Shown: positions 6,872 through 33,818 of the stretch, piece after piece | Numbering within the stretch: position 1 is the first letter of the stretch | Layout of the letters: every line of letters starts with the position of its first letter | Assembly (NCBI RefSeq): GCF_002846365.1 | Contig: NZ_PJMW01000001.1 | Coordinates: 434,001 to 498,000 of the forward strand | Length of the DNA: 64,000 nucleotides | From: Nocardia fluminea | Lineage (GTDB): Bacteria > Actinomycetota > Actinomycetes > Mycobacteriales > Mycobacteriaceae | Direction: 5' to 3' | Made by a program: the position numbers and the translations under genes | The notes under the pieces: model-generated | What the model was told of the DNA's origin: nothing | The model's input: the letters and a program-made list of their open reading frames with translations, nothing else | The model's database searches: none

Positions 6872-6889
6872 TATGTTACTGCCTATTCC
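6872..6889 (+). promoter_or_regulatory. 18-bp motif copy 1
   Basis: TATGTTACTGCCTATTCC. It lies 107 bp upstream of the DUF2236 start and points away from that gene, so it fits an operator better than a promoter for it. Confidence 0.6.
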
Positions 6890-6962
6890 ATCAAATGTAG
6901 AGAGATGCACAGGAACAAGAAGGTGGTATTCACAGGTGATTGACAGCTCGGACCACGGTTAC

Positions 6963-6980
6963 TAAGTTGATGATCATTCA
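6963..6980 (+). promoter_or_regulatory. 18-bp motif copy 2 (divergent)
   Basis: TAAGTTGATGATCATTCA. It carries G instead of the usual A after GTT and sits 91 bp from copy 1 in the same orientation. It is one of the weaker matches. Confidence 0.45.
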
Positions 6981-7034
6981 CCGGGTGTCACAGGCGGGCA
7001 TGCACTGCGGCGCCAGGTGGACACCTCCGCGACG

Positions 7035-7074
7035 ACCTCGCCCGCCGACCGCATACCGCGTCGACGGGCGAGGT
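7035..7074. terminator. Hairpin terminator after the thiolase
   Basis: ACCTCGCCCG at 7035-7044 pairs perfectly with CGGGCGAGGT at 7065-7074, flanked by a run of four T on the plus strand. It begins 17 bases beyond the thiolase stop and should end that minus-strand transcript. Confidence 0.65.
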
Positions 7075-7090
7075 TTTCCGTCAACAGCCT

Positions 7091-8254
7091 TCAGAGACGT
7101 TCGATGATCGTGGCGTTGGCCAATCCGCCCGCCTCGCACATGGTCTGGAGTCCGTAGCGACCGCCGGTCTGTTCGAGATGGTTGACCATCGTGGCGAGCA
7201 ACCGGGTCCCGGAAGCCCCGAGCGGATGCCCGAGAGCGATGGCGCCGCCACGCGGATTGACCTTGGCCGGGTCGGCGCCGAGCTCGTGCTGCCAGACGAG
7301 CGGGACCGGCGCGAACGCCTCGTTCACCTCGAAGGTGTCGATGTCGTCGACCGTGAGCGAGACTCGCTCGAGCGCCTTGCGGGTCGCGGGGACCACGGCG
7401 GTGAGCATGAGGGTCGGATCGTCGCCGACAACCGCGAAGGAGTGGAAGCGGGCGCGCGGGGTCAAGCCCAGCTTCGACGCCATCGCCTCGCTCATGATCA
7501 GCGCCGCCGACGCACCGTCGGTGAGCGGCGAGGAGTTGCCCGCGGTCACCGACCAGTCGATCTCCGGAAACCGGTCCAGGAGAGCGGGATCGGTGAAGGC
7601 AGGGCGCAGGCCGGCCAAACCTTCGACAGTCGTGCCGGTGCGTATCGTCTCGTCGGCTACGAGGTCACCCGCGGCGATCAGCTCGGCATCGAAGCCGCCG
7701 GAGGCCGCGGTGGCGGCGGCCAACCGATGCGAGCGGGCGGCGAACTCGTCGAGGGTCGCGCGGTCCAGTTTCCAGCGGGCGGCGATGACCTCGGCCGCGA
7801 TCCCCTGCCCGATCAGGCCGGCCGGATAGCGAGCGGCGAGCGGGCCACGCAGCGAGTCCTTGCCCTGGGTGTTGGAGAACATCGGCGCGCGGCTCATCGA
7901 CTCGACGCCGCAGGCGATCGCTACGTCGTACGCGCCGGCGAGCACACCCTGGGCGGCGAAGTGCACGGCTTGCTGGCTCGAACCGCACTGCCGGTCGACA
8001 GTGGTGGCAGGCACCGACTCCGGGAATCCCGCCGCGAGTACCGCGGTCCTGCTGATGTTGTTGGCCTGTTCACCACTCTGCGTGACACAGCCGCCGATCA
8101 CGTCGTCGACGAGGGCCGGGTCGATCCCGGTGCGCGCGACCAACTCCGCCAGCACACCGGCCAGCAGCGTGGCCGGATGCACGGACGACAATCCGCCGCC
8201 GGCCTTGCCTCGACCCGACGGTGTACGAACCACGTCGACGATGACAGCTGACAT
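7091..8254 (-). CDS. Thiolase (acetyl-CoA C-acyltransferase family)
   Basis: A 387-residue thiolase that should catalyse the CoA-dependent cleavage of a 3-ketoacyl-CoA in the last step of beta-oxidation. The nucleophile is Cys90 in VDRQCGSSQ, the base histidine is in GHPLGASG, and the second active cysteine is in MCEAGGLAN near the C-terminus. The second of two adjacent ATG codons (8254) is taken because AGGAGG is then six bases away. It is transcribed divergently from the mce operon, with four motif copies in the shared intergenic region. Its first codons are almost identical in DNA to the remnant leader in front of the SDR at 33 kb. It probably shortens whatever the mce system imports. Confidence 0.92.
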   Translation of the reverse strand: MSAVIVDVVRTPSGRGKAGGGLSSVHPATLLAGVLAELVARTGIDPALVDDVIGGCVTQSGEQANNISRTAVLAAGFPESVPATTVDRQCGSSQQAVHFAAQGVLAGAYDVAIACGVESMSRAPMFSNTQGKDSLRGPLAARYPAGLIGQGIAAEVIAARWKLDRATLDEFAARSHRLAAATAASGGFDAELIAAGDLVADETIRTGTTVEGLAGLRPAFTDPALLDRFPEIDWSVTAGNSSPLTDGASAALIMSEAMASKLGLTPRARFHSFAVVGDDPTLMLTAVVPATRKALERVSLTVDDIDTFEVNEAFAPVPLVWQHELGADPAKVNPRGGAIALGHPLGASGTRLLATMVNHLEQTGGRYGLQTMCEAGGLANATIIERL

Positions 8255-8301
8255 CATGAACCTCCTGCACGGTCGCCGTCCATGCGGCGACATCCCTCGG
8301 G

Positions 8302-8319
8302 TAAGTTAATAACCATTCT
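8302..8319 (+). promoter_or_regulatory. 18-bp motif copy 3
   Basis: TAAGTTAATAACCATTCT, 47 bp upstream of the thiolase start and pointing away from it. The interval between motif and start codon is nearly the same as at copy 13 in front of the thiolase-like leader. Confidence 0.65.
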
Positions 8320-8377
8320 TATCACTTGCCGCTAGATGGATGCCAGAAATCGTGGTTTAAGCGATATGATCGCGTCC

Positions 8378-8395
8378 CATGTTACTGTCTATTCC
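8378..8395 (+). promoter_or_regulatory. 18-bp motif copy 4
   Basis: CATGTTACTGTCTATTCC. It differs from the consensus only at the first base and lies 76 bp from copy 3. Confidence 0.6.
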
Positions 8396-8603
8396 GCAGC
8401 ATCACGAGTTGGGGGCATGATGCGCGGGCCGCATCGGCACCGGCACGCACCCCTCAGCAGCGTCCGGTGCCGATGCGATGGTCCCTCCACTCGTCCCGGT
8501 TCCCATCGACCCACGGATGGACGACCGGCGAGAAGGGCACCGCGGACGCGACCTGCGACCGCACGCGATCCGGCGCCCTATAGGCAATCCTGAATCTATG
8601 AGA

Positions 8604-8621
8604 TATGTTACCGGTAATTCT
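8604..8621 (+). promoter_or_regulatory. 18-bp motif copy 5, forward arm of an inverted pair
   Basis: TATGTTACCGGTAATTCT. With copy 6 it forms a head-to-head pair (3' ends facing) whose centres are 31 bp apart, upstream of the mce operon. Confidence 0.65.
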
Positions 8622-8634
8622 CGTCACAGAGGCG

Positions 8635-8652
8635 AGAATGGATAGTAACTTC
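8635..8652 (-). promoter_or_regulatory. 18-bp motif copy 6, reverse arm of an inverted pair
   Basis: Read on the minus strand this is GAAGTTACTATCCATTCT. It faces copy 5 and lies 183 bp before the first gene of the mce operon. Confidence 0.6.
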
Positions 8653-8834
8653 ATGTTCCATGGTCGCCACCCCGAGCGACAGAAGTCGCAAGGCTTCTCG
8701 CATGACTCAGGGGTAGACGATCCTCCTTCGGGTCCAACCCAGAAGAACGCTCGACAACAACAACGCACCGCCAACGACGGCGGTCGGCAGGCCCGACGTC
8801 GTCCAAGGTCCCGAGGAAGGACACCGGTACCACC

Positions 8835-9290: not shown

Positions 9291-10142
9291 GTGACGCCGC
9301 AACCGGCCACCGAACCGTCCGAGGTCGGACGGCTCATCGACAGCGCCACCGGGCTCTGGCGACGGCATCCCCAGCAGTCGATCGAGACCCTCGGCAGGCA
9401 GGTCCTCCTCGGTAGGGCAACGATCGCGCAGTTGTTCCTGTCGCTCGTGCAACGGCGCTTTCCGTTCCAGGAGTTCATCAAACAGTGCGCGTTCATGGCC
9501 AACGTCTCGGCGTTGCCGACCGTGTTCGTCGCGATCCCGGTCGCGGTGGTGGTCTCGATCCAGGTCGGCGCGCTGGTCAACCAAGTCGGCGCCACCACCT
9601 TCATCGGCGCGGTCGCCGGGCTCGGCATCATCCGCCAGGGCGCACCACTGGTCACGTCGCTGATGATCGCGGGCGCGGTCGGCTCGGCCATCTGCGCCGA
9701 TCTGGGTTCGCGCACCATCAGGGAGGAGATCGACGCGATGAAGGTGATGGGCGTCGACCCGGTGCGCCGGCTGGTCGCCCCACGACTGGCCGCCGCGGTG
9801 CTGGTGAGCATGCTGCTGTGTGGGTTCATCGTGTTCGTCGGTTTCGCCACGGCTTACCTGTTCAACGTCTATGCCCAGCAGGGCACGCCGGGATCGTTCA
9901 TCAGCTCGTTCTCCTCGTTCGCGGTGGCCAACGACCTGATGGTCGCGCTGTTCAAGGCGGCGATCTTCGGTGCGCTCACCGCGATCATCGCGTGCGACAT
10001 CGGACTGCACACCAAGGGCGGGCCCGGCGGTGTCGCGAATTCGGTGAACTCGGCGGTGGTCACCTCGGCCCTGATGTTGTTCGCCACCAACATCATCGTC
10101 ACCCAGCTGTACAACAGCTTCTTCCCCGCGAAGGTGGTGTGA
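9291..10142 (+). CDS. yrbEA: YrbE A, MlaE-family permease of the Mce transporter
   Basis: A 283-residue integral membrane protein of the MlaE/YrbE family, one of two permease subunits of a Mce lipid importer. The family block appears as GSAICADLGSRTIREEIDAMKVMG near residues 126-150, and five or so membrane helices follow. The start is GTG at 9291, preceded by AAGGA. The YrbE B gene begins one base after the stop. The ATPase that energises Mce systems (MceG/Mkl type) is not in this window and is normally encoded elsewhere. Confidence 0.92.
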   Translation: MTPQPATEPSEVGRLIDSATGLWRRHPQQSIETLGRQVLLGRATIAQLFLSLVQRRFPFQEFIKQCAFMANVSALPTVFVAIPVAVVVSIQVGALVNQVGATTFIGAVAGLGIIRQGAPLVTSLMIAGAVGSAICADLGSRTIREEIDAMKVMGVDPVRRLVAPRLAAAVLVSMLLCGFIVFVGFATAYLFNVYAQQGTPGSFISSFSSFAVANDLMVALFKAAIFGALTAIIACDIGLHTKGGPGGVANSVNSAVVTSALMLFATNIIVTQLYNSFFPAKVV

Positions 10143-10143
10143 G

Positions 10144-11007
10144 ATGGCCGCCGAGTACATCCCGCCGGCACTGCGTCCGGTCCGCGCGATCAGCGCGACC
10201 GCCAAGATCCCCGTCCAGGCCAATCAGCGCCTCGGCCACCAGGCCATCGTGTTCTTCCAGGCCCTGATGGCCATCCCGTACACGCTGCGCCACTACCGCA
10301 AGGAAGTCGCCCGCCTGGTCGCCGATGTCGGCTGGGGCAACGGCTCGCTCATCGTCGGCGGCGGCACTGTCGGCGTGGTCATCGCGCTGTGCGCGTTCGG
10401 CGGGATCACCGTCGGGGTGGAGTCCTACACCGCGTTGAATCTGCTCACGATGGGTCCGCTGACCGGCGCCATCTCCGGCTTCGCCACCACCCGTGAGATC
10501 GCGCCGATCCTGGGCACTCTCGCCTTCGCCATCCAGTCCGGCTGCCGATTCACCGCACAGCTCGGCTCGATGCGGATCTCCGAGGAGATCGACGCGCTGG
10601 AGTCCATCGCGATCCGGCCCCTGCCCTATCTGGTGACGACCCGGATGATCGCGGCCACGATCACCATCATCCCGCTCTACACCCTCGGCCTCGCGGTGGC
10701 CTACGTGGCGACCAAGCTGTCGGTGCTGTTCCTCGGCGGTACCACCGCAGGCACCTACGACCACTACTTCTTCCAGTTCCTGCTGGGCGGGGACGTGTTC
10801 TACTCGATCTTCAAAGTGGTGGTGTTCGTTCTCATCGCGGCGTTCATCCAGTGCTACTACGGCTTCGTCGCCTCCGGCGGCCCCGAAGGCGTCGGCGTCG
10901 CGGCGGGCCGGGCCATCAAGATGGTCATCGTCGTCATGGTCTTCACCAATCTGTTTCTCACCCTTGCGATCTGGGGCATCGACCCCGGATTCCGGATCTC
11001 GGGATAG
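10144..11007 (+). CDS. yrbEB: YrbE B, MlaE-family permease of the Mce transporter
   Basis: A 287-residue partner of YrbE A with the same MlaE fold. It has the conserved glutamate block TAQLGSMRISEEIDALESIAI at about residues 138-158 and hydrophobic helices before and after. The ATG follows the YrbE A stop after one base, and mceA begins nine bases after its end. The two YrbE proteins are expected to form the heterodimeric membrane channel beneath the Mce protein tube. Confidence 0.92.
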   Translation: MAAEYIPPALRPVRAISATAKIPVQANQRLGHQAIVFFQALMAIPYTLRHYRKEVARLVADVGWGNGSLIVGGGTVGVVIALCAFGGITVGVESYTALNLLTMGPLTGAISGFATTREIAPILGTLAFAIQSGCRFTAQLGSMRISEEIDALESIAIRPLPYLVTTRMIAATITIIPLYTLGLAVAYVATKLSVLFLGGTTAGTYDHYFFQFLLGGDVFYSIFKVVVFVLIAAFIQCYYGFVASGGPEGVGVAAGRAIKMVIVVMVFTNLFLTLAIWGIDPGFRISG

Positions 11008-11016
11008 GTCGATCGA

Positions 11017-12459
11017 ATGATTCTCGATCTCAGCGGCCGCGGCCCCAAACCCCTGCAGCTCACGCTCGCGGGACTGGCGGTGATCACCGCGTTCGCGGTC
11101 GCTCTGTATCTGCTCGCACTGCGCTACAACGGCGAGTTCGAGGACACGGTGGTGGTCGGTGCCGACCTCACCAGTACCGGCGACGGGCTACCCCAGCGCG
11201 CCGACGTGAAGTATCGCGGCATGCTCGTCGGCTCGGTCGGCTCGGTGGAGATGGTCGCCAAGGGCGAACGCCAGCACGCCACCTTGGAACTGAAGCCGGG
11301 TCTGGCGCAGACGATTCCGAACACGGTCACCGTGCGCGTCATCCCCGACAACATCTTCGGCGTCTCCTCGCTCCAGCTCGTGGACAACGAGGGAACCGCC
11401 GAAGGACTGCGCGAGGGTGAGACTATTCGCGAGGACACCAGCGAGGCCACGATCCAGCTGCAGACCACGCTCAACACCCTGCGCGATGTGCTCGACACCA
11501 TCCAGCCCGAGAAGCTCGGGCGGGTGCTGGCCACCTTGTCCGCCGCGCTCGATCCGAGCAGCCGCGTCCCGGGTTCCACGGTGGAGCGCCTCGATACCTG
11601 GCTCACCACCATCCACAACATTCCCGAAATCGGCGATCTGCTCGGCAATTTCGGCCAGGCGGCGACAGCACTGAGCCAGTCGGCACCGGAACTGGTCGGA
11701 GTGCTGGCCGATTCGGTGACCACAGCGCGCACGCTCAACGAGCACCGCACCCAAATGGTGGAACTGCTCACCCAGGGCAACTCCACCATCGAATCGGTCA
11801 ACGCCCTGTTCGCCGCGAATCCCGATTCGGGCAAAGAACTGGTTTCCGGCCTGGACCAGTTGCTCGGTGGCATCGCCAAGGATCCCAGCGCGCTGCAGTC
11901 GACGGCGGCCAACCTCAACAACTCGTTGCGCAAGCTCCAGCAGACGTTCAACTTCGGTCCCAGCAAGCAGATGACCTGGCGGATGGATGTGACGTTCACA
12001 CCGTTCCAGCAGTACACCGCCAAGGACTGCCCGCACTACGGTGAGATGGCCGGACCTCGCTGTGGTGGGCCCACCGTGCCCGAAGTCGCACCGCCGCAGG
12101 AGTATCCGGCCCAGATGCTGCCGAAGCGACTCGAGTCCGCCGGACCGGCACCGGTAGCGCCGATTCCCGGGCTACCCGCACTGCCGAGCATCACCGTGCC
12201 GACTGTTCCCGGCTTGCCGACGTTCCCGGGTCTGCCCGCCATTCCGGGACTGCCCACCATTCCAGGCATCACGGCACCGGCCGCGTCCCTCGATCCCGCG
12301 CCCGCGGCCACCCCGGCGGCGCAGCCCCGGCTCGGCGGCATCGCCGCGATATCGCAACTGGTCGGCGGTAGACCGACGTTCAGTCAGCTGCTGCTGCTCG
12401 GGTCGATCCTGGGCAACATCGCCATCGTCCCCGACATCGAAGGTGGTGTCCAACAGTGA
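11017..12459 (+). CDS. mceA: Mce-family protein A
   Basis: A 480-residue Mce protein. One N-terminal membrane anchor (residues about 12-32) is followed by the MCE/MlaD domain (about 38-115), a long helical domain that in this family builds the lipid-conducting tube, and a proline-rich tail with repeated PGLP-type units between about residues 380 and 425. Mce A proteins are cell-envelope components that, with B-F, carry hydrophobic substrates from the mycomembrane to YrbE. The stop overlaps the GTG start of mceB. Confidence 0.93.
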   Translation: MILDLSGRGPKPLQLTLAGLAVITAFAVALYLLALRYNGEFEDTVVVGADLTSTGDGLPQRADVKYRGMLVGSVGSVEMVAKGERQHATLELKPGLAQTIPNTVTVRVIPDNIFGVSSLQLVDNEGTAEGLREGETIREDTSEATIQLQTTLNTLRDVLDTIQPEKLGRVLATLSAALDPSSRVPGSTVERLDTWLTTIHNIPEIGDLLGNFGQAATALSQSAPELVGVLADSVTTARTLNEHRTQMVELLTQGNSTIESVNALFAANPDSGKELVSGLDQLLGGIAKDPSALQSTAANLNNSLRKLQQTFNFGPSKQMTWRMDVTFTPFQQYTAKDCPHYGEMAGPRCGGPTVPEVAPPQEYPAQMLPKRLESAGPAPVAPIPGLPALPSITVPTVPGLPTFPGLPAIPGLPTIPGITAPAASLDPAPAATPAAQPRLGGIAAISQLVGGRPTFSQLLLLGSILGNIAIVPDIEGGVQQ

Positions 12460-13478
12460 AATCCACGAAAGCACTGCTCGGGTTCAGCTTCTTCGCCGTC
12501 TTGGCGACATTGCTCACCTACACGATCTGGTCGACGCTGCAACGCAGCGTCCCCGGCAACACCTCGAGCTATTCGGCGGTCTTCACCGATGTGCTCGGAT
12601 TGCGCATCGGCGACGACGTCCGGATGGCGGGTGTGCGGGTCGGGCGGATCGACAAGATCGACTTCACCGACAACTACATCGCCAAAGTCGACTTCCAGAT
12701 CGAGTCGCGCCAGCACCTGACCGACACCACCAAAGCCCTGGTGCGGTACCAGAACCTCATCGGTCAGCGGTACCTGGCACTGGCGCCGGGCACCGGCGAG
12801 GGCAGCGTGGTACCGCCCGGCTCACAGATTCCGCTCGAGCGGACCGAGCCGTCGTTCGATGTCTCGGCGCTGCTGTCCGGATTCGAGCCACTGTTCAGTG
12901 TGCTGCAACCCGATCAGATCAATTCGCTGTCGGAGACTCTCATCCAGGCGCTGCAAGGCAACGAGGTGTCGCTGGCGGCGCTGATCACCCAGGCCGCCCA
13001 GTTGGCCGGCACTTTCGGTGAACGCGATCAGATCATCGGCGATGTGCTGAGCAATCTCAGTTCGGTGATGGCCGGTCTGGCCAATCGCAGCGACGAGCTC
13101 GAGACCCTGATCACCCAGACGCGCAGTTTGATGGACGGGCTCTACGCCGAGGGCGAATCGTTGAAGAGTTCGGTCGAACGGGTAGCGGGGGCGACGAACG
13201 GGCTCGTCTCACTCATCGAGCAGGTCGCGCCCGGACTGGCCAACGCACAACGCAACGCCACGACAGGCGTGATGATGTTGCTCTACAACGGCGCCGCACT
13301 CGATCGCGCCGCGGTCGAATTCCCGGACTTCCTCAACGGTGTCGCCCGGTTCACCCAGTACGGCACCTACGGCAATGCCTACATCTGCCGCCTCGACGTC
13401 TCCCTGTGGGGCGTTCTCCTACCCGAGGGCTTGTTCTCGCAGGTCGGCGGCACCTCACAATCGGAAGTGTGCCGATGA
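12456..13478 (+). CDS. mceB: Mce-family protein B
   Basis: A 340-residue Mce protein with an N-terminal anchor (about residues 5-25), MCE domain (about 35-115) and helical domain. It starts at GTG, overlapping the mceA stop as GTGA, and ends overlapping mceC as ATGA. Cysteines near the C-terminus (CRLDVS and the final CR) may form a disulphide, as is common in Mce tails. It is a structural subunit of the transport tube. Confidence 0.93.
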   Translation: MKSTKALLGFSFFAVLATLLTYTIWSTLQRSVPGNTSSYSAVFTDVLGLRIGDDVRMAGVRVGRIDKIDFTDNYIAKVDFQIESRQHLTDTTKALVRYQNLIGQRYLALAPGTGEGSVVPPGSQIPLERTEPSFDVSALLSGFEPLFSVLQPDQINSLSETLIQALQGNEVSLAALITQAAQLAGTFGERDQIIGDVLSNLSSVMAGLANRSDELETLITQTRSLMDGLYAEGESLKSSVERVAGATNGLVSLIEQVAPGLANAQRNATTGVMMLLYNGAALDRAAVEFPDFLNGVARFTQYGTYGNAYICRLDVSLWGVLLPEGLFSQVGGTSQSEVCR

Positions 13479-14488
13479 TCAAACCACGCGTTCCCGCATT
13501 TCTGCGGCACAACCAGCACCTGCGGCTCGGCCTGATCGCCGCCCTGGCGGTACTGGTGTTGCTCGGCGGTTCGAATCTGCTCAATCAGGTCCAGCTCGGC
13601 GACAAGACCGTGCACGCCGAATTCGCTCAGGCCGCGGGCCTACGGCCGGGCGCGACAGTCGACGTCTCCGGCATCGAGGTCGGCGAGGTCCAAGCGGTGA
13701 AGCTCATCAACGACCGGGTGGAGGTGGCGCTGCGGATCCGCAAGGACATCCGTCTGGGCGCCGACGCCCACGCGGCGATCAAGATGTCGACCATCCTCGG
13801 CCGGCTGCACATCGTGCTGCGGCCCGGCAACGGAAAAGAGCTGCCCGGCAATCGGATCCAGCTCGACAACACCGAGGTCCCCTACAACCTGAGCAAGGTC
13901 ATCCAGGACCCGCAGTACACTTCCTCGTTCGAGCGGATCGAACGCATCGACCCGGAGAAACTGCGCACCGCGCTCGACGTGTTCAGTGCCCAGCTGGGCG
14001 ATTCACCCGCTATGGCGGTGCAGGCCCTCGACAGCATCGGCTCGCTCGCGCAGGTGATCAACAGCAGGCGCGACGAGGTCGACACGCTGCTGAAGAGCAT
14101 GGACCAGGTCTCCCAACTGGTCTCGGACAACCGCAACAGTGTGCTGGTGCTGCTCACCAGGGGGGAAGCGATCGGGGCGGCGGTGCAGAAGCGCCAAACC
14201 CTGCTCACCCAGCTGCTCGACAATGTCGCGGACATGTCGAGGTTGCTCCAGGAGATGGGCATCGAGAACAACGGTGAACTCGGACCGCTGATCGCGAACC
14301 TCAACACGATGGCCGACGGCCTGACCAAGAACAAGGAGAACCTGGACCGGATCTACGAGTTCGCCCCGGTCACGTTGCGCCAGTTCAACAATCTGCTCGG
14401 CAACGGTCCCTACGGCGAGATCTGGGCACCGTGGATTCTTCCGGACAACTGGCTGTGCTTCGCACAGGCCGTACAGGGGTGCAACTGA
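13475..14488 (+). CDS. mceC: Mce-family protein C
   Basis: A 337-residue Mce protein. The start at 13475 overlaps the mceB stop and puts a basic segment and one membrane anchor (about residues 15-33) first; an in-frame start 23 codons earlier lies inside mceB and is unlikely. The MCE domain spans about residues 43-120 and contains GLRPGATVDVSGIEVGEV. The tail ends WLCFAQAVQGCN. It is part of the six-subunit Mce assembly. Confidence 0.93.
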   Translation: MIKPRVPAFLRHNQHLRLGLIAALAVLVLLGGSNLLNQVQLGDKTVHAEFAQAAGLRPGATVDVSGIEVGEVQAVKLINDRVEVALRIRKDIRLGADAHAAIKMSTILGRLHIVLRPGNGKELPGNRIQLDNTEVPYNLSKVIQDPQYTSSFERIERIDPEKLRTALDVFSAQLGDSPAMAVQALDSIGSLAQVINSRRDEVDTLLKSMDQVSQLVSDNRNSVLVLLTRGEAIGAAVQKRQTLLTQLLDNVADMSRLLQEMGIENNGELGPLIANLNTMADGLTKNKENLDRIYEFAPVTLRQFNNLLGNGPYGEIWAPWILPDNWLCFAQAVQGCN

Positions 14489-15588
14489 TGAGGACCACAC
14501 GCACGAGCAAGCTCGTCGCGGTCTGCTTCGCCGCGACGCTCGCCGCGGGCTGCTCGCTGCTGCCCGACAGCCTGACCGGACTGGGTAACCAGGTGCTGGG
14601 TGAACAGAAGCGCATCAGCGCCGACTTCGAGAACGTGGCAGGGCTGTACGCGGGCAACGAGGTGTCGGTGCTCGGCGTGCCGGTCGGTGTCGTCGATTCG
14701 GTGACACCGCGCGGCAGTTACGTCGAGGTGGTGATGTCGGTCGACCGTGACGTCCGCATACCCGCCGAGGCGATGGCGGCGCTGGTGTCGCCGCAGCTGA
14801 TCACCAACCGCCATGTCGAACTCGCCCCGGCCTATACCGGCTCGGGGCCCGAGCTCGCCGACGGTGCGCATATTCCGTTGTCTCGCACCAGGACACCGGT
14901 CGAGCTGGACCGGATCCTGGCCAACTTCGATCAGCTGGGCGAGGCGCTCAAGGGCGACAGCCAGAGCGGGCCCATGGCGAGCCGGGTACTCTTCCCGCTG
15001 CTCGACGGCAACGGCGACCGGTTGCGCGAAACGCTCGACGAACTCTCGGCCGCCTTCGAGCTGACTCTCGCCAACAAGGACCAGATCGCCAACACCATCA
15101 TCGAACTCGGTGAGATCACCCAGATCATCGCCGACAACGATCAGACCGTCCGCGACTTCAGCGGTCGCATCACCGAGTTGGTCGCGCTGTTCGGGCAGCA
15201 GTCCCCCGGTCTGCAGGCGGTGCTGACTCAGCTCGACGACTTTATCACCAATACCTCCTCGGTGGTCGGCCAGAATCAGGATCAGCTCGCGGGCGCGCTC
15301 ACCAAGTTCGTCGCGATCGCCGCTCAGATGCGGGCCAATGCGCGCAATCTGACCGAAATCATCGACGTCGGTCCGCTGATGTTCCAGAACTTCGACAACG
15401 CGATCAGCCGCGAGCACCAGGCTCTGCGCCTGCACGGTCTGCTCGACAAGATCGTGCTCGACAGCGAGGTGGTCTCGCTGTTCTGCGAGCGCGTCCAGAT
15501 GCGTCTGGACGGCTGCCGCACCGGAAAGATCTCCGATATGGGCCCGGACTTCGGGCTGACCGCCGCGCTGTTGGGACTGACGAAATGA
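14488..15588 (+). CDS. mceD: Mce-family protein D, predicted lipoprotein
   Basis: A 366-residue Mce protein in the fourth position. Instead of a plain membrane anchor its N-terminus has a signal peptide with lipobox LAAGC, giving a lipidated cysteine at residue 22. The MCE domain follows at about residues 35-115 (GLYAGNEVSVLGVPVGVV). The ATG overlaps the mceC stop by one base, and in-frame upstream starts would destroy the signal peptide. In the mycobacterial operons usually described, the lipoprotein is the E subunit, so this operon seems to have two. Confidence 0.92.
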   Translation: MRTTRTSKLVAVCFAATLAAGCSLLPDSLTGLGNQVLGEQKRISADFENVAGLYAGNEVSVLGVPVGVVDSVTPRGSYVEVVMSVDRDVRIPAEAMAALVSPQLITNRHVELAPAYTGSGPELADGAHIPLSRTRTPVELDRILANFDQLGEALKGDSQSGPMASRVLFPLLDGNGDRLRETLDELSAAFELTLANKDQIANTIIELGEITQIIADNDQTVRDFSGRITELVALFGQQSPGLQAVLTQLDDFITNTSSVVGQNQDQLAGALTKFVAIAAQMRANARNLTEIIDVGPLMFQNFDNAISREHQALRLHGLLDKIVLDSEVVSLFCERVQMRLDGCRTGKISDMGPDFGLTAALLGLTK

Positions 15589-17878: not shown

Positions 17879-17892
17879 GGAGCACGAAAGCC

Positions 17893-18495
17893 ATGCCCAA
17901 CGACGAAACGCCCACCAGCACAACACCATCCGAAGCACCATCCGCTGCGGTCGATCCGGGAACCGCCACCAAGCCCAAGTGGTGGGCGATGGATCGCAAG
18001 ACACTCGGCCTGCGCGGGGCTGCCGCGATCGTCCTGGGTGCCTCCGTGGCGACCTCGGTGTTCCTCTTCGTGGAGAACAAGAACAGCACCGATCTCCTGG
18101 ATGCCCAGCAGCAGGCCCGCGAGGCCGCGTGCCGCTACGCGCCCGCACTGGCCGACTACGACAGCAAGAACCTCGACACCTACTTCAAGGCTGTCCTCGA
18201 CGGCGCGACGGGCGACTGGAAGAAGCAGTTCGAATCCACCAGCACCGAGTTGCGCGATGCCCTGACCCAGGGCGAGGTCGTCTCGAAGGTCACCGATGCC
18301 CAGTGCGCGCTGCGCTCCGGCGACGAGAACTCCGCCGAGGCGATCGTGGTGATCGGGACGACCATCGCCAGCCTCGGCACCGAACAAAAGCCCAAGCCGA
18401 GCCAGCTCTCGATGGTGTTCGACCTGCGCAATGACGACGGCCGCTGGCTCGTCGAGAAGGTGAACTCCCCGTTGACCTCGCCACCCGCCCCATGA
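17893..18495 (+). CDS. Mce-associated membrane protein (Mas type)
   Basis: A 200-residue protein with a Thr/Pro/Ala-rich cytoplasmic N-terminus (about residues 1-40), one membrane span (about 42-62) and an extracytoplasmic NTF2-like domain containing ADYDSKNLDTYFKAVLDGATGDWKKQF. This is the layout of the Mce-associated proteins found downstream of actinobacterial mce operons and thought to stabilise the complex. The AAGGAG ribosome site overlaps the mceF stop, so it belongs to the operon. Confidence 0.88.
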   Translation: MPNDETPTSTTPSEAPSAAVDPGTATKPKWWAMDRKTLGLRGAAAIVLGASVATSVFLFVENKNSTDLLDAQQQAREAACRYAPALADYDSKNLDTYFKAVLDGATGDWKKQFESTSTELRDALTQGEVVSKVTDAQCALRSGDENSAEAIVVIGTTIASLGTEQKPKPSQLSMVFDLRNDDGRWLVEKVNSPLTSPPAP

Positions 18496-21449: not shown

Positions 21450-23369
<1,920 letters not shown>

Positions 23370-23397
23370 CCCTTTCCGCGCCTTCGAGGAGACGACG

Positions 23398-26369: not shown

Positions 26370-27560
26370 CTATATCGACAGGGTGGACTCGGTGTCTCGA
26401 TAGTTCGCTTTACGCACGACCAGCGCGGACTGCAGATACCAGAGCCCATCGGCCGACGAGGGATCGAAGCCCGTCAGTTTGCGAATACTCTTCAGCCGGT
26501 AGTCGATGGTGTTCATATGAACACTCAGCTGTCGCGCGGTTCGCCGGCGGTTCAGATTGTTGGCGAGGTGCGTGCACAAGGTTTCCATCAGAATCGGATG
26601 ATCGTCGAGTGGGTTCAGTATCGCGTCGAGATGCCGGCGCACGGCAGATGGCCTCGTCAGCTGATATTCGACTGCCAGGTCGGCGAAACGGAACAGACCC
26701 GGTGGGCGCTGGATTCGCTGCACGAGATCCAAGAGTTCGCACAGTTGGTCAACGGTTTCCGGAATTCTCGCCGGCGGCGCTTCCGCGCACGTCGCGGTCA
26801 TGTCGACGCCCGCCGCCCCCGACAGCACAGCCAGCAACGCGTCGAGGTCCCTCGTTTCGTCCGACGGAATGAGGATGACACCACCGCGCACATCGAGTCG
26901 CGACAACGCACGCACCGACCCATGGCGATCCAGCGCCGCGCGGATATTTCGAATCATCCGCCGGACATCCATCTGGGTGAGAAGCGTTTCCGACCCGCCG
27001 TCGCCGCGGGACGGAAAATGTAGCGCCAGCACGGAATAGCTCTCGGCGACCTCGAAACCGCTACAGCGTGTCACCGTCGATGTATCCTGCCCCGCGAGCA
27101 ACGCGACCATCACAGCGCTTTTGGTCCGTTGATCCTCGATGACCTCGGCTTCGAGATGGTCGCTGTAGGCAAGGGATATCGCCGCCGTCACGCTGTCCAG
27201 CATTTCGGTCGCCAGCTGGCGCACGACCGTGAGCTTCTGTTCGTCGGTGCCCACCACGTTCGAGGCGAACAGCTCCAAACTCGTTGCGAAACCCCGATCG
27301 ATCGCCCTGTCGATCACCTCGCCGGGCACCTCGGTGCGAGCCCGCGTCGGCCCCGCGACGCGATGTCGAACGGTGTCGCCGCGTCCACGAACCGGAAGTG
27401 TGGTCAGGGCACCACCGTTGTCGCCACCGGGGCGCGTAGCCATGCTCTCGAGCATCCGGGAGACCAACTCGTCGGCGAGTGCCCGGACTCTGATGGAGGA
27501 CTCCCCCGTGGCCACACGGGGCCGCGAAGAATCGATGCTGGGTGAATAGTCGGTAGTCAT
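26370..27560 (-). CDS. PucR-type transcriptional regulator (second of two)
   Basis: A 396-residue paralogue of the preceding regulator. The C-terminal DNA-binding block contains LCTHLANNLNRRRTARQLSVHMNTIDYRLKSIRKLTGF, and the segment before it (FRFADLAVEYQLTRP) matches the other protein's FRFGQFALEYQLSRP almost position for position. The ATG at 27560 has GAGGAAG seven to eight bases upstream; the longer in-frame start has no ribosome site. A motif copy lies 88 bp upstream, so this one is probably itself a member of the motif regulon. Confidence 0.85.
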   Translation of the reverse strand: MTTDYSPSIDSSRPRVATGESSIRVRALADELVSRMLESMATRPGGDNGGALTTLPVRGRGDTVRHRVAGPTRARTEVPGEVIDRAIDRGFATSLELFASNVVGTDEQKLTVVRQLATEMLDSVTAAISLAYSDHLEAEVIEDQRTKSAVMVALLAGQDTSTVTRCSGFEVAESYSVLALHFPSRGDGGSETLLTQMDVRRMIRNIRAALDRHGSVRALSRLDVRGGVILIPSDETRDLDALLAVLSGAAGVDMTATCAEAPPARIPETVDQLCELLDLVQRIQRPPGLFRFADLAVEYQLTRPSAVRRHLDAILNPLDDHPILMETLCTHLANNLNRRRTARQLSVHMNTIDYRLKSIRKLTGFDPSSADGLWYLQSALVVRKANYRDTESTLSI

Positions 27561-27647
27561 CTTTGACTTCCTCACTGCGTTCAACGTCGCCTCACGGCAG
27601 CGATGGCTGGCAAGTAGTCTCCCATGTCGCGGACGCCAGCACAAGGT

Positions 27648-27665
27648 TATGTTAATGACTATTCC
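27648..27665 (+). promoter_or_regulatory. 18-bp motif copy 9
   Basis: TATGTTAATGACTATTCC, 88 bp upstream of the second PucR gene and pointing away from it. Confidence 0.62.
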
Positions 27666-27854
27666 GAGCTATGAGGACTGTTTTTCGTGGCGCGGCAGCC
27701 CCCTGCTCGATTCCGCCAGCACGCCCCCGCGCTGGTAGTGCCACCGATCGGGCCATCTGAAGTGCAGCAAGACAGAACGATGCCATGCCATCCGTTGCGT
27801 GAGATGCCCCGGGCAGACTCCGTCGAATCCGAGACGGACCGACTTAAAAAGCGT

Positions 27855-27872
27855 TAAGTTACTGTCAATTCA
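27855..27872 (+). promoter_or_regulatory. 18-bp motif copy 10
   Basis: TAAGTTACTGTCAATTCA, 73 bp upstream of the globin start and in the same orientation as that gene. Confidence 0.62.
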
Positions 27873-27945: not shown

Positions 27946-28386
27946 ATGGACGAACCGGATCGACGCAGCACGACCGCGTCCGACAACGATTCCGACGCAT
28001 CGCCGGACGGCCGCCCGCTCTACGAGCGGATCGGCGGTCACGGCGCCCTGGAGACGGTCGTCGAAGACCTCTACCGACGCGTCCTCGCCGATGAGCGGTT
28101 GTCGCCGTTCTTCGCCGGGAGCAACCTCACCCGCATGAAGGGTCGACAGGTCGAATTCTTCGCAGCGCTACTCGGCGGGCCGGTGCCCTACGCCGGCGCG
28201 TCCATGCGAACCGTCCATCGAGGTCGCGGCATCACCGTGAACCATTTCAACTCGGTCGCAGGCCATCTCGTCGACGCGCTCATCGCAGCGGGGCTGGATC
28301 GAGAACTGACCGACGAGGTGATCGGTGCGGTCGCACTACTGGCGGGCGACATCGCCACGCCCCGGGAGTCACCCACCCCGCCGTGA
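27946..28386 (+). CDS. glbN: Group I truncated haemoglobin
   Basis: A 146-residue globin of the truncated group I type. It has [20 protein letters not shown] in helices A-B, the glycine-rich [18 protein letters not shown] segment, and the proximal haem histidine in [21 protein letters not shown] polar, disordered N-terminal tail of about 28 residues precedes the fold. GAGGA lies before the ATG at 27946; longer in-frame starts cover motif copy 10 and are unlikely. Such globins bind oxygen or nitric oxide. In this context it might supply oxygen to, or protect, haem oxygenases of the regulon; that is inference. Confidence 0.9.
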
Positions 28387-28495: not shown

Positions 28496-30142
28496 TCACT
28501 GCGGCTCGGCGCTCTCGAGCTTGCGACGCAGCAGCTTACCGGTGGCGTTGCGCGGCAATTCGTCTACGAAGACCACATCCCGCGGGACTTTGTGTCGCGC
28601 CAAAGTCGCTTTGACGTAGTCCTTTATCTGCTGCGCGTCGCACGGCGCACCGGGCGCGGGCACGACGAACGCGCGCAGGCGTTTTCCGAAGTCACGATCC
28701 TCGACCCCCACCACCGCGGCCTCGAGGATGTCCGGCCGTTCCACGAGCAGATTCTCGACTTCGAGCGGGAAGACGTTCTCCCCGCCTGAGACGATCATGT
28801 CGTCGTCTCGGCCGTCGATGAACAGTCTTCCCGCCGCGTCGAAATGGCCGACATCGCCGCTGGATTGCATTCCGTCGACAGTCTCCTTGCCGGTGCCGTC
28901 GGTGTAACCGCCGAAACTCAGCGCGCTGGCGACGAAGATGGTGCCGACCACGCCCGGTTCGGTGATCCGGCGGCGGTCTTCGTCGTAGATCGCGACCCGG
29001 CAGCCCACGGGTGGCCGGCCGACGGTGCCCGGCGCCGCACGCATATCGGCGGGCGTGGCGACCGCTGCCACCGCGACTTCTGTCGAGGCATACAGGTTGT
29101 AGAGCACCTCACCGAACGCCAGCGCGGTACGCCTGCTCAAGTCGGGTGAAATCGCGGATCCGGCCGCGAAGATGACCTTCAGCGAGGAGGTGTCGTATTC
29201 GGCGAGCACGGACTCGCCCAGATCGACGATGCGCTGCAACATCGTCGGCACCAGCACCAGCGTGCCCGCGCGATGGTGTTCGACATCGGCCAGCGTGCGG
29301 CGCGGGTCGAATTTGCGCTGCTGCAGGATGATCGTGCTGCCCAGCGCCCAGCCGAGAATCAACTGGGACAGACCGGTGCCGTGGAACGCCGGCGCCGCGA
29401 GCACAGTCGCGCTCGCCTTCGGCAAGGGGATCCGGTCGAGGAACTGCGCCGACTGCAAGGGCGACACTTTGCCTCGCGGTGCACCTTTCGGCGTTCCGGT
29501 CGTGCCGCTGGTGAGTACCACGATCCCGCCGGGCTGTTCGGGGCTCGCCGGCGGCCGCGTGGATCGGCCCGCTCGGACATCGTCCAGCGTGGGCTGCCCG
29601 TGGTTCGCCCAGCCATCGTCAGCGGTCAGAATGAAAGGTAACTTATTGGGCAGATCGCCGAACCGGTGGAGAAACTCGGCGTCGAGGAGGATCGCACCCA
29701 CGTTCTCCCGTTCGGCCACCGAGACCAACTGCGGGCCTGCCATCCCGGTATTGAGCAACACGATTCGCGCGCCCAGCTTGCCCGCGGCGAGCAGCGACAA
29801 CACCATCCCCCGGTGGTCCCGGCACAGCGTGGCCAGCACAGTGCCGCTCGTGATCCCCCGCGCGGCAAGGCCGTTGGCCACCGCGTTCGACCTGCGATCG
29901 AGCTCGGCGAAGGTCAGCGGCCCTTGCTCGTCGACAATGGCCGTGGCAGCGCCGTTGTGACGAGCGGCGTGCGCGAACGCGGTGGCGACGGGACCGAGCA
30001 CTGTCGCATCCCTGGCGGTACGCAGCAGCTCCACCGGGTCTCGAAGGTCGATCGCGCCGCTTCTGCGCAGAACCCCGACGGCGGACAAGCCGTCGGCCAT
30101 CGTTCTGAACAGGGCCGCGGGCGTGCTCGGGATCACCGGCAT
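28496..30142 (-). CDS. Acyl-CoA synthetase (FadD type)
   Basis: A 548-residue AMP-forming acyl-CoA ligase. The P-loop is LTSGTTGTPKG, followed by NLYASTEV, the hinge IDGRDDDMIVSGGENVF, and the catalytic lysine block NATGKLLRRKLES at the C-terminus. GGAGG lies four to five bases before the ATG at 30142; the upstream in-frame start has no such site. It is divergent from the DUF2236 gene at 30341, with a motif copy in between, and carries another motif copy inside its coding region. It should activate fatty or isoprenoid acids for beta-oxidation. Confidence 0.92.
   Translation of the reverse strand: MPVIPSTPAALFRTMADGLSAVGVLRRSGAIDLRDPVELLRTARDATVLGPVATAFAHAARHNGAATAIVDEQGPLTFAELDRRSNAVANGLAARGITSGTVLATLCRDHRGMVLSLLAAGKLGARIVLLNTGMAGPQLVSVAERENVGAILLDAEFLHRFGDLPNKLPFILTADDGWANHGQPTLDDVRAGRSTRPPASPEQPGGIVVLTSGTTGTPKGAPRGKVSPLQSAQFLDRIPLPKASATVLAAPAFHGTGLSQLILGWALGSTIILQQRKFDPRRTLADVEHHRAGTLVLVPTMLQRIVDLGESVLAEYDTSSLKVIFAAGSAISPDLSRRTALAFGEVLYNLYASTEVAVAAVATPADMRAAPGTVGRPPVGCRVAIYDEDRRRITEPGVVGTIFVASALSFGGYTDGTGKETVDGMQSSGDVGHFDAAGRLFIDGRDDDMIVSGGENVFPLEVENLLVERPDILEAAVVGVEDRDFGKRLRAFVVPAPGAPCDAQQIKDYVKATLARHKVPRDVVFVDELPRNATGKLLRRKLESAEPQ
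29628..29645 (-). promoter_or_regulatory. 18-bp motif copy 11, inside the FadD gene
   Basis: Read on the coding strand this is TAAGTTACCTTTCATTCT, about 500 bases into the gene. It forces a rare TTA leucine codon in the reading frame, which argues that it may be maintained for DNA binding. Confidence 0.5.
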
Positions 30143-30226
30143 GGATACCTCCGAAGGGGTTGGAGTACTCGGGACAAGCGATCGGAATCCAGGCACCGAC
30201 GGCCGATGGCGATCGTAGCCCGATGA

Positions 30227-30244
30227 GGAACCATTAGTAACTTA
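30227..30244 (-). promoter_or_regulatory. 18-bp motif copy 12
   Basis: Minus strand TAAGTTACTAATGGTTCC, with one mismatch in ATTC. It lies 84 bp before the FadD start and 96 bp before the divergent DUF2236 start, so one site could serve both. Confidence 0.6.
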
Positions 30245-30340: not shown

Positions 30341-31198
30341 ATGACCCGTTCAGCGAGGGCTGGTCGGCCGCAGGATGTCTCGGACGACACAGCACGCCGG
30401 CACCGCTACCTCAACGGCGTCGGCGCGTTGCTGGGCGGCCCGGCGAACGTGATCATGCAGCTGAGCCTGCCGCCGGTGGGGCGCGGAGTGGTGGAGAGCG
30501 TCGTCGCGTCGGGCAGCTACGCCACGCGGCCGGCCAAGCGCGGTCGAACCACGCTCACCTACCTCGCCGTGGCGATGATCGGCACCGACGAAGATCAGGC
30601 GGCCTACCGTGCCGCGGTCGGCACCGCGCACCGGCAGGTGCGCTCGGGACCGCACAGCCCGGTTCGCTACAACGCTTTCGACCCTCAGCTGCAACTGTGG
30701 GTCGCCGCCTGCCTGTACCGAGGCGTCCTGGATACGGTGAACCTGCTCTTCGGCGGGATGAACGAGCAGGATGCCGACGACATGTATCGCGATGCCGCCA
30801 GATTCGGGACAACCCTGCAGATGCCGGCCGAACTGTGGCCGGCCGATCGCGCGGCCTTCGATCAATACTGGGACTCGATGCTCGGCAAGCTGTCCTTCGA
30901 CGACGAAGTCCGCACCTATCTGCTCAACTACGTTGTCGAGTTGGCGGCCTGGCGTCGAGGCGTCCAGGTGGCATTCGGGCGGGCGAATCGCTTCTTCACC
31001 ACCGGGTTTCTGCCACAGCAGTTCCGCGACGAGTTGGGTCTGCCGTGGAGCCCGCGCAGGCAGCGAGTGTTCGAAATCGTGATGCGCACGCTCGGCCGGG
31101 TGCTCGAAGTGCTGCCGGACGCTTGGCGCGCCCAGCCTTTCGAGCGCTACCTCGACGACATGCGTGAACGGCGAGCTCAGGGCAAGAATCTCATCTGA
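30341..31198 (+). CDS. DUF2236 / MpaB-family oxygenase-like protein
   Basis: A 285-residue paralogue of the DUF2236 gene at 5.8 kb, lacking that protein's N-terminal 45 or so residues. Shared blocks are ANVIMQL, TYLAVAMIGT, the histidine block GTAHRQVRS, YNAFDPQLQLWVAA, and FFTTGFLPQQFRDE. There is no signal peptide. GGAGG is nine bases before the ATG. It is divergent from FadD across motif copy 12. It is cytoplasmic and likely haem-binding by family; the substrate is unknown. Confidence 0.86.
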   Translation: MTRSARAGRPQDVSDDTARRHRYLNGVGALLGGPANVIMQLSLPPVGRGVVESVVASGSYATRPAKRGRTTLTYLAVAMIGTDEDQAAYRAAVGTAHRQVRSGPHSPVRYNAFDPQLQLWVAACLYRGVLDTVNLLFGGMNEQDADDMYRDAARFGTTLQMPAELWPADRAAFDQYWDSMLGKLSFDDEVRTYLLNYVVELAAWRRGVQVAFGRANRFFTTGFLPQQFRDELGLPWSPRRQRVFEIVMRTLGRVLEVLPDAWRAQPFERYLDDMRERRAQGKNLI

Positions 31199-32383: not shown

Positions 32384-32429
32384 CGAGCCGTGCCCGTTCC
32401 GTCGGGCCCAGCGGGCGATGAGCGATCGA

Positions 32430-33173
32430 TCATGCCCGCCACAGCTGGCTTCCCGACCGCGAGACGACGATATTGGGGACGACGGCGTTCGCGGAGAGGC
32501 GGGTGATGGCCAACACCAGCTCGGCGATGTCGCCGGTGGTGAGCATCGCCGCGCGGTCGAGTTCCTCGCGCTTCCACGCCGTCATATCGGTATCGACATA
32601 GCCGGGCGAGATGGCGGTCGCACTGACACCGTTCGCGGACTCCTCCAGCGAAATGGTTTCACAGAGCGACACCAAAGCGGCCTTCGACGCCCCATAAGCG
32701 GCCAGCCCCGGCTCGCCCGCCACACCCGTGATCGATGCCAGCGCAATGATTTTCGCGCCTGCTCCCGGATTGTCCTTCGCGGTCTCGCGGAGCAACGGCA
32801 GACAGTGCTGTACCAGGGTCAGGGGGCCGCGGACATTGATGTCGAACATCCGGTGATAGCTGGAGGTGCTCATCGTCGCTACGGGACCGGCGGTGCCGGT
32901 GCCGGCGCAGTGCACCAGTACGTCGAGGCGACCGAAGCGTTCGGCGTGGGTGTCGGCGAGCTGCCGCAATTGGTCCGGTTCGTTCATGTTGGCGATCACT
33001 GTCACCACGTCGGCGCCGTAGTCCTCGCGCAGCTCCGCGGCAGCGCTGTCCAGGACGGCCTTGTCGCGGGCAGCGAGAGTGAGGCCGTAGCCGAGTTCGG
33101 CCAGGCGCCGGGCGACCTCCGCCCCGATCCCTCGCGAACCGCCGGTGATCAGGGCACAACGCCGATATGTCAT
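32430..33173 (-). CDS. Short-chain dehydrogenase/reductase
   Basis: A 247-residue SDR with the nucleotide-binding TGGSRGIG at residues 10-17, the NAG-equivalent block VLVHCAGTG, and catalytic YGASK near residue 155 preceded by an ASITG serine segment. It should oxidise or reduce a hydroxy/keto group with NAD(P). The start at 33173 overlaps the stop of a 25-codon leader (ATGA), so translation is probably coupled to it. The longer in-frame start at 33263 has no ribosome site. A motif copy upstream places it in the putative regulon. Confidence 0.88.
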   Translation of the reverse strand: MTYRRCALITGGSRGIGAEVARRLAELGYGLTLAARDKAVLDSAAAELREDYGADVVTVIANMNEPDQLRQLADTHAERFGRLDVLVHCAGTGTAGPVATMSTSSYHRMFDINVRGPLTLVQHCLPLLRETAKDNPGAGAKIIALASITGVAGEPGLAAYGASKAALVSLCETISLEESANGVSATAISPGYVDTDMTAWKREELDRAAMLTTGDIAELVLAITRLSANAVVPNIVVSRSGSQLWRA

Positions 33174-33247
33174 CGCTGCTCCGATCCCGCACCGCAGGCT
33201 CTGCGGCCGGACGGTGGTCGAAGCACGTCGACGATGACAGCGAACAT
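33170..33247 (-). pseudogene. Thiolase 5' remnant acting as a coupled leader ORF
   Basis: A 25-codon frame whose start, MFAVIVDVLRPPSGR, mirrors MSAVIVDVVRTPSGR of the thiolase at 8254. The DNA just inside the two genes agrees at 22 of 23 positions (8230-8252 against the plus-strand stretch ending at 33244). GGAGAG precedes the ATG. Both frames also lie 48-49 bp from a motif copy in the same orientation. Thiolase similarity ends after about 15 codons and the frame stops at TGA overlapping the SDR ATG. It looks like a promoter and 5' end left after duplication and deletion, now feeding the SDR. Confidence 0.7.
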
Positions 33248-33295
33248 CTTCAGCTCTCCTCACGCGCTGTCACCGGCGGTCGGCGACAGTACCCA

Positions 33296-33313
33296 TAAGT
33301 TAATCATGATTCC
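33296..33313 (+). promoter_or_regulatory. 18-bp motif copy 13
   Basis: TAAGTTAATCATGATTCC, 49 bp upstream of the thiolase-like leader and pointing away from it, as copy 3 does at the real thiolase. Confidence 0.65.
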
Positions 33314-33376
33314 CGACCGCGAGGGAGCGGCGCCCGAGATCCGGGAGAGTGCGTCGCATCGCCGAAGTTTCACCGG

Positions 33377-33394
33377 TATGTTACGGGCAATTCC
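33377..33394 (+). promoter_or_regulatory. 18-bp motif copy 14
   Basis: TATGTTACGGGCAATTCC, 81 bp from copy 13, with no gene assigned to it. Confidence 0.58.
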
Positions 33395-33594
33395 GTAGCC
33401 CTTCGCATCGATACGCCGCGAATACGATCGCAACCTCCGACAGATCGGCCCGGACAGTGAAACGCCCCGGCCTCGAGGCCCCACGAAGCGCTGCCCTTAC
33501 CGCACTACACCGTTGCGGACGGGCCGTGGGCGATGCGGGTCATGCCTCCCACCGCCAGGCGTCGGCGAATCGGCTCGGTTGCGCAGCGTCCAGT

Positions 33595-33612
33595 TATGTT
33601 ACCCACTATCCC
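33595..33612 (+). promoter_or_regulatory. 18-bp motif copy 15
   Basis: TATGTTACCCACTATCCC, with C instead of the second T in ATTC. It is an orphan copy between the SDR and lcp genes. Confidence 0.52.
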
Positions 33613-33777
33613 GAGCATGCTTACAGAGGCTGCTGTTCACCCGGCTCGACCGCGCACCAGCCTCGACGCGACCGGCCGATTGCGGTGATACCGCAGGCCA
33701 GAAGCCCAGTTCACGCGAGCCGAACTACCCCTTCGCTCTCGGACTCGAACTACTGCAGAGCGTCGATCCCCATAACG

Positions 33778-33806
33778 TGGACATCAGACCAATCCCCTGT
33801 TAAGTT
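33778..33806 (+). promoter_or_regulatory. Promoter-like element of lcp
   Basis: TGGACA at 33778-33783 and TAAGTT at 33801-33806 are separated by 17 bases and lie about 90 bp before the lcp start. The -10 is the 5' end of motif copy 16, so occupation of the motif should repress lcp. Confidence 0.5.
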
Positions 33807-33818
33807 ACTCACTATTCT
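33801..33818 (+). promoter_or_regulatory. 18-bp motif copy 16, lcp operator
   Basis: TAAGTTACTCACTATTCT, a full consensus match 77 bp upstream of lcp in the same orientation. Confidence 0.65.

Follow-up and report, generated by a model that had tools for sequence, protein, structure and literature searches.

An asymmetric 18-bp motif in a Nocardia fluminea lipid gene cluster is a probable operator of a double-TetR regulator

An asymmetric 18-bp motif occurs sixteen times between positions 6872 and 33818 of a 64-kb stretch of the Nocardia fluminea genome (the window, meaning the whole stretch analysed). The motif is very probably the operator of the double-TetR protein encoded at 18536–19825, either alone or together with close paralogues. 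It places lcp, which encodes latex clearing protein, an mce operon, MPAB oxygenase genes and β-oxidation genes under one predicted operator, and it probably marks a regulon for rubber or isoprenoid catabolism. Throughout, the word operator denotes a prediction from sequence.

An asymmetric motif and its candidate regulator

The motif is far more frequent in this stretch than expected. We searched both strands of the window for TAWGTTAMTNNYNATTCY with at most two mismatches and found 16 matches, against a mean of 0.05 and a maximum of 1 in 100 dinucleotide shuffles. The scan reproduced exactly the coordinates and strands of the 16 sites in a first-pass annotation of this DNA, and at the same threshold no site appeared between 33818 and the window end, as that annotation had stated. 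Across the 8.06-Mb genome (four contigs) there are 25 matches within two mismatches and 7 for the reversed-pattern control. The span 6872–33818 accounts for 16 of these 25 matches, among them every one of the six that are perfect.

Aligned, the 16 sites are sharply conserved at positions 1–8 and 14–17, with a weaker middle and little signal in the flanks. The conserved blocks, TAWGTTA(A/C) and ATTCY, are unlike each other and form no visible palindrome, in keeping with the asymmetry first described. The sites average 32% G+C in a window of 67%, and the contrast noted earlier between AT-rich sites and a GC-rich background therefore holds. A simple codon-based gene caller, which misplaces some starts and gives only rough "inside gene" labels, draws 14 of the 16 outside genes. 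Site 27855 also counts as intergenic because an in-frame ATG at 27946 is the likelier globin start; this yields the fifteen intergenic sites claimed before, with 29628 alone inside a gene (fadD). Sites recur in pairs at spacings of 75–81 bp, 21 bp and, inverted, 31 bp, many of these pairs coming from related loci.

The sites are conserved among related Nocardia. The closest proteins and loci all come from this genus, N. salmonicida reaching 95%. The annotation had called for a check at related loci, and in N. alba, whose regulator is 90% identical, all sites but one are clearly matched at the corresponding position (15 of 16); at 33595 the match is weak, with the left half preserved (score 17.0). 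With N. alba insertions left out of the alignment, 263 of 288 site positions are identical, compared with 1658 of 2284 in the rest of the compared stretches, and 18 of the 25 changes within sites fall at the loose positions 9–13. A matrix built from the 16 sites finds 100 matches scoring at least 18 in 66 Nocardia loci (1.31 Mb), and its mirror finds none. One site looks orphaned: 6963..6980 (TAAGTTGATGATCATTCA, plus strand) has a perfect TTGACA 17 bp upstream (6940–6945, TTGACA-17-TAAGTT), yet points into the thiolase 3′ end (6940–7090). Extra DNA at this place in N. alba encodes an MPAB_Lcp gene in the matching direction, and because that gene is kept there, the operator appears to have outlived its MPAB gene in the window.

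Across genomes, the motif tracks the regulator. Counting motif matches within 1 mismatch, with the mirror pattern as control, we found a regulator match in all 98 Nocardia genomes, which together hold 447 motif and 46 mirror matches; 93 have at least one motif match. In the other genera of the family (272 genomes) a regulator match meant E of 1e-30 or better, a cut-off that other double TetRs may pass; the 177 genomes with such a match hold 84 motif and 15 mirror matches, and the 95 without hold 16 and 22. Outside Nocardia the motif thus exceeds its mirror control only in regulator-bearing genomes of the family (Fisher p 2e-6, an indication rather than an exact probability, since the genomes are related). 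Perfect matches occur in 69 of 96 Nocardia genomes, the mirror giving none, and in 39 of 148 genomes of a mycobacterial genus (Mycobacterium/Mycolicibacterium, assigned from the names of its regulator's homologues), the mirror giving one match. Of 30 motif matches found in that genus regardless of the regulator, 10 lie 41–177 bp upstream of a double-TetR gene, measured to its matched start, where a rough estimate expects about 0.002 by chance.

Related half-sites also emerge without the motif as a guide. De novo counting of dyads in the intergenic DNA that surrounds double-TetR genes, blind to the motif, returned AGTTA-N6-ATTCT in 11 of 12 close Nocardia orthologue loci, which in part reflects shared descent, and TGTTA-N6-ATTCT in 4 of 9 loci from other genera chosen only by their regulator. 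A variant, TGTGA-N6-ATTCA, came up in 9 of 12 N. abscessus-group loci.

The candidate regulator has the architecture that an asymmetric site would call for. Its 429-aa chain contains two TetR_N stretches and a TetR_C_24 stretch, and so unites two TetR DNA-binding domains in a single polypeptide of ~400–430 aa; both helix-turn-helix (HTH) regions carry invariant columns in an alignment of 34 proteins. Our structure model predicts a single-chain pseudo-dimer with the same fold as Mce3R. When the Nocardia, mycobacterial and LcpRB-like groups are compared, the first recognition helix is 69–73% identical and the second 42–50%; in two further pairs of groups the helices do not differ in this way (62/60 and 52/50). 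Because the first helix and the left half-site are both more alike between groups, these comparisons weakly suggest an assignment of TAWGTTA to the first HTH and of the right half to the second. The second recognition helix (residues 275–289) is one residue longer in Nocardia proteins than in the other groups. Several Nocardia species have tandem double-TetR genes, and many N. abscessus group members carry sites before the copies.

The first-pass annotation had proposed one operator of variable orientation serving one lipid regulon. Conservation in N. alba, co-occurrence with the double TetR and coherent targets in two genera favour that proposal; it put forward no regulator, overlooking the double TetR inside the span.

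Targets and a proposed mechanism

Genes beside the sites point to isoprenoid lipids. Thirty perfect Nocardia sites, each from a different genome, adjoin 35 genes, of which 18 belong to PF09995 (MPAB/Lcp), 10 of these being Lcp; the rest include thiolase (3), NMO (2), FadD (2), MlaE (1) and single others. The 36 genes next to 30 perfect mycobacterial sites include 12 of PF09995 and 7 that encode the double TetR itself. The yardstick for these counts is the 16 PF09995 matches in the N. fluminea genome, and the sites are not independent, the species being related. By rough labels, 25 of the 30 Nocardia and 22 of the 30 mycobacterial sites are intergenic. The reverse test agrees: lcp was found in 82 of 96 Nocardia genomes, and the 30 best-scoring of the lcp loci all have a site 66–92 bp upstream of lcp (mirror 0/30). 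It is because perfect sites precede MPAB/Lcp, mce, thiolase, FadD, NMO and regulator genes, and because every one of these lcp loci has a site, that we read the set as a probable isoprenoid-catabolism regulon; the earlier "lipid" label fits the genes and is sharpened by lcp and the MPAB oxygenases to isoprenoid- or rubber-type lipids. In N. farcinica, lcp is reported to rise 21-fold with polyisoprene (PMC9782182).

The same gene families recur away from the window. Three further sites in the genome, each with 1 mismatch, accompany an aldehyde dehydrogenase gene (with MPAB beyond), two paired acyl-CoA dehydrogenase genes and a gene for a secreted protein outside known families. Seven site-bearing mycobacterial loci contain mce-type MlaE permease genes (2) and MPAB genes (2, one weak), with enoyl-CoA hydratase, aldehyde dehydrogenase and FAD amine oxidase genes nearby. 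The operator before mycobacterial mce and MPAB genes suggests that MPAB (DUF2236) serves isoprenoid-type lipids there too.

In the window, the predicted targets are MPAB, thiolase, mce, acyl-CoA dehydrogenase (ACAD), NMO-ECH-FadD, PucR, globin, FadD, a second MPAB, short-chain dehydrogenase (SDR) and lcp, and the genes that the annotation had listed behind the sites are indeed there. At the left end, an MPAB_Lcp oxygenase gene (5767..6867, minus) starts 5 bp from site 6872..6889 (TATGTTACTGCCTATTCC, plus; kept in N. alba). A thiolase gene (7091..8293, minus) has site 8302..8319 (plus) upstream, 76 bp from site 8378..8395 (plus) in the thiolase/mce intergenic region. Upstream of the mce operon lie site 8604..8621 (plus, unchanged in N. 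alba) and, inverted at 31 bp, site 8635..8652 (minus). The operon itself (9291..18495, plus) encodes yrbE/MlaE permeases, Mce proteins and an associated gene, and the regulator gene (18536..19825, plus) follows as the last gene.

Farther right, an ACAD gene (19902..21047, minus) diverges from an operon for NMO, enoyl-CoA hydratase (ECH) and FadD (21532..24975, plus; the FadD5 model scores above its cut-off). This operon has a TTGACA, its likely −35 box (21450..21455, plus), 18 bp before site 21474..21491 (plus), whose TAAGTT takes the −10 place, and a second site, 21495..21512 (plus), 21 bp after the first. A PucR-type regulator gene (26370..27644, minus), a possible target, is separated from a bacterial globin gene (27946..28386, plus; its open reading frame (ORF) opens at 27799) by site 27648..27665 (plus), and site 27855..27872 (plus) lies upstream of the globin. 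Within an acyl-CoA ligase gene, fadD (28496..30196, minus), is an operator-like site, 29628..29645 (minus, kept in N. alba), and site 30227..30244 (minus, unchanged in N. alba) lies between fadD and a divergent MPAB_Lcp oxygenase gene (30341..31198, plus). The SDR gene (32430..33263, minus) has site 33296..33313 (plus) upstream, 81 bp from site 33377..33394 (plus) in the SDR/lcp intergenic region; a weaker site, 33595..33612 (plus), is weakly kept in N. alba. The lcp gene (33881..35137, plus), identified as a rubber oxygenase by its match to 5o1l (E 3.8e-145), has its own site at 33801..33818 (plus, unchanged in N. alba), with TGGACA at 33778–33783.

Several features adjoin or resemble the cluster. 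Two more MPAB_Lcp genes lie just left of the window, at C1:431131-431844 and 432972-433685, and weak motif-like sites occur at C1:429241 and 433914 (scores 16.5 and 17.6), which suggests that the cluster extends leftwards beyond the window. Ahead of the mce operon, a 74-aa ORF (8835–9059) has no Pfam match; in mycobacteria its homologues (46–57% identity) adjoin sites, and several are divergent to the double-TetR gene. At C1:189266-190501 the genome has another Lcp-like gene, which shares 53% identity with the window lcp. An intergenic element of ~55 bp starting CGGTTA is conserved in 13 of 20 Nocardia loci (for example on the minus strand near 10192 of one locus) and may be another operator, distinct in sequence from the 18-bp motif.

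We propose that the regulator is a repressor. Its single chain would use two different HTHs to read two different half-sites, TAWGTTAM and ATTCY, with a spacing of about one helical turn, and this would explain why the site is not palindromic. At 18 of 130 nonredundant sites a hexamer at least 5/6 identical to TTGACA lies 17–18 bp before TAWGTT (500 shuffles: mean 0.7, maximum 4); three of them belong to the window, 21474 (NMO operon), 33801 (lcp) and 6963. TAWGTT thus occupies the −10 position at part of the promoters, where binding of the repressor would keep RNA polymerase off the DNA. The recurrent pair spacings suggest cooperative binding. A ligand from isoprenoid-lipid breakdown would probably release the repressor and so induce lcp and the MPAB oxygenases for C=C cleavage, Mce import, and acyl-CoA ligases, dehydrogenase, hydratase and thiolase. 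The regulator would control itself, in N. fluminea by way of the mce promoter and in mycobacteria by way of a promoter of its own.

A wider version of this model is, to our minds, evenly balanced between right and wrong. One repressor would govern a family-wide isoprenoid regulon in Nocardia and mycobacteria, its conserved first HTH on TAWGTTAAT and its faster-changing second HTH on ATTCY, AATCA or GATAC according to branch, and the co-regulated Mce would import oligo-isoprenoids made by Lcp and MPAB oxygenases. Lcp is described as cleaving polyisoprene into products with aldehyde and keto ends, and their uptake by Mce followed by β-oxidation figures in the same source as a proposal only (PMC8235351). 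With a shared operator and a recurrent lcp site in Nocardia loci, deleting genes would now put the idea of Mce as importer to a direct test.

Alternative explanations

Several results weigh against assigning the motif to this regulator as a repressor. No motif match within 1 mismatch was found in 5 of 98 Nocardia genomes that have the regulator family. No site scoring at least 18 was found in 6 of the 9 other-genera loci chosen only by regulator, or in 12 loci of more distant relatives (one reaches 15.5), where lcp was not found either. One Nocardia clade seemed motif-free at first, with 10-kb flanks; among 20 longer stretches 8 have a site and 12 have none at that score. The apparent loss is thus partly an artefact, because 10-kb flanks stop close to the mce promoter. 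In 11 mycobacterial loci the de novo count ranked other sequences highest; those loci had been chosen for a nearby motif match, so the sites in them are no independent test. No TTGACA-like hexamer precedes 112 of the 130 sites at 17–18 bp, several sites point away from the nearest gene, and one lies inside fadD. Finally, the genome has four double-TetR matches, and the acting paralogue may be another of these.

One competing explanation, possible if doubtful, is that this is simply the reported LcpRB regulon of Streptomyces and Actinoplanes with a drifted operator. LcpRB of S. coelicolor A3(2) is reported to bind a stretch before lcp containing TATGTTAATGAAAAATCACA (PMC7413915, PMC8235351). 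ACTI_69510 of Actinoplanes sp. OR16 is described as having two TetR regions, being 72% identical to LcpRB and binding before lcp3, where TATGTTAATGGAAAATCACA lies (PMC7413915). For both, the reported site of action before lcp is of the form TATGTTAATG.AAAATCACA, which the two papers call palindromic. As described there, they share with the system here a double-TetR chain, reported with two HTH or TetR regions, a site before lcp and an identical left half, TATGTTAAT; at sequence level the window likewise has a double TetR and a site upstream of lcp, both genes lying in its cluster. When we scanned 394 genomes of the class for the LcpRB-type site with 1 mismatch, three had it, each with a double TetR and lcp close by and thus the same TATGTTAAT half-site, and lcp sites run throughout the examined Nocardia loci.

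Other features separate the two. The right half is AATCACA in the LcpRB type and ATTCY here, and the LcpRB operator TATGTTAATGNAAAATCACA has no match within 1 mismatch in the N. fluminea genome. The three LcpRB-like proteins, assigned by operator and lcp neighbour, show ~31% identity and form their own branch beside the Mycobacteriaceae clade, with Mce3R further off (midpoint root; long branches call for caution). LcpRB, moreover, is described as a regulator of lcp, whereas the site set here also covers mce, MPAB and β-oxidation genes.

A second explanation, which we judge unlikely, keeps the operator and makes one of the other double TetRs in the genome, instead of the protein encoded at 18536–19825, the main binder. 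The four double-TetR matches, their similar first recognition helices and the distance at which Nocardia lcp sites often lie from the listed double-TetR genes would all allow this. The protein encoded at 18536–19825, in contrast, sits in the cluster and stays beside the sites in close relatives, and of two paralogues, 51% and 43% identical to it, one has no site in 20 kb of DNA and the other has a single site, 9.5 kb from its own regulator gene.

It is very improbable that another local regulator binds the motif, whether the single TetR at 31751–32383, the TetR near 5075–5710 or one of two PucR-type proteins, even though the genes for all of them lie within or next to the span. The usual target of a single TetR dimer is a palindrome, which the motif is not. 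The 10 of 30 mycobacterial-genus matches before a double-TetR gene also speak for the latter, and no homologue of the local regulators was found in the 11 mycobacterial loci (the double TetR is present there, as at every locus fetched through it for the neighbour table, by construction).

Equally improbable is a promoter class, in which the motif would be a sigma-factor recognition sequence and TAWGTT merely its −10 box. The 18 sites with a TTGACA-like hexamer would suit it; the downstream ATTCY block, conserved as strongly as the left block, would not, nor would tandem sites 21 bp apart, inverted pairs, the many sites without the hexamer and a presence that follows the TetR-type gene. A dispersed repeat or chance cluster with no regulatory role is scarcely credible given 16 sites against 0.05 expected, conservation in N. 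alba, co-occurrence with the regulator and 30 of 30 lcp sites.

Relation to known regulators

The closest structural counterpart is Mce3R of Mycobacterium tuberculosis, a double-TetR repressor (PDB 9b7y) reported to bind two 25-bp sites 53 bp apart (PMC11667970). Like the N. fluminea protein it is a single-chain double TetR, of the same fold as our model predicts, with an asymmetric operator and a link to an mce operon and lipid genes. Recognition helices of Mce3R and the Nocardia group are 52% identical in the first HTH and 26% in the second. Aligning the DNA just upstream of mce3R in 30 orthologue loci, which is mostly coding, yielded no operator. The de novo count in the same loci gave ATGTC-N6-CGATA (13/30), and the refined sites pair mostly at 76–78 bp, which serves as a positive control because it agrees with the published two-site layout. 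These sites share an ATGT..AT left part and the spacing with the motif here and differ in a GATAC-like right half. An Mce3R orthologue is rejected as the regulator: none of the 30 orthologue loci has the motif within 2 mismatches, and Mce3R forms a separate long branch (100/100).

Other TetR-family regulators of related genes bind differently. LcpR of Gordonia polyisoprenivorans VH2, as described, also acts before lcp, at long palindromic sites unlike those here (PMC7413915), and is called a dimer (PMC8235351). KstR and KstR2, the TetR repressors of the cholesterol regulons and thus of mce-linked lipid catabolism, are homodimers on short palindromes.

Against this background, the earlier description of the regulon as previously unnamed applies to its breadth and less to its site, since the LcpRB and ACTI_69510 sites share the left half TATGTTAAT. 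In the open-licence literature that we searched, we found no description of the regulon breadth, the right half-site, the mycobacterial branch or the lcp–mce link. New here are accordingly the operator variant in its right half-site, the breadth of the regulon, its spread to mycobacteria and the co-regulation of lcp with mce. The mechanism would be of a known kind, because the double TetRs LcpRB and ACTI_69510 act before lcp at related sites. The set of operators also gives a natural series for studying the recognition of two different half-sites by a single-chain double TetR.

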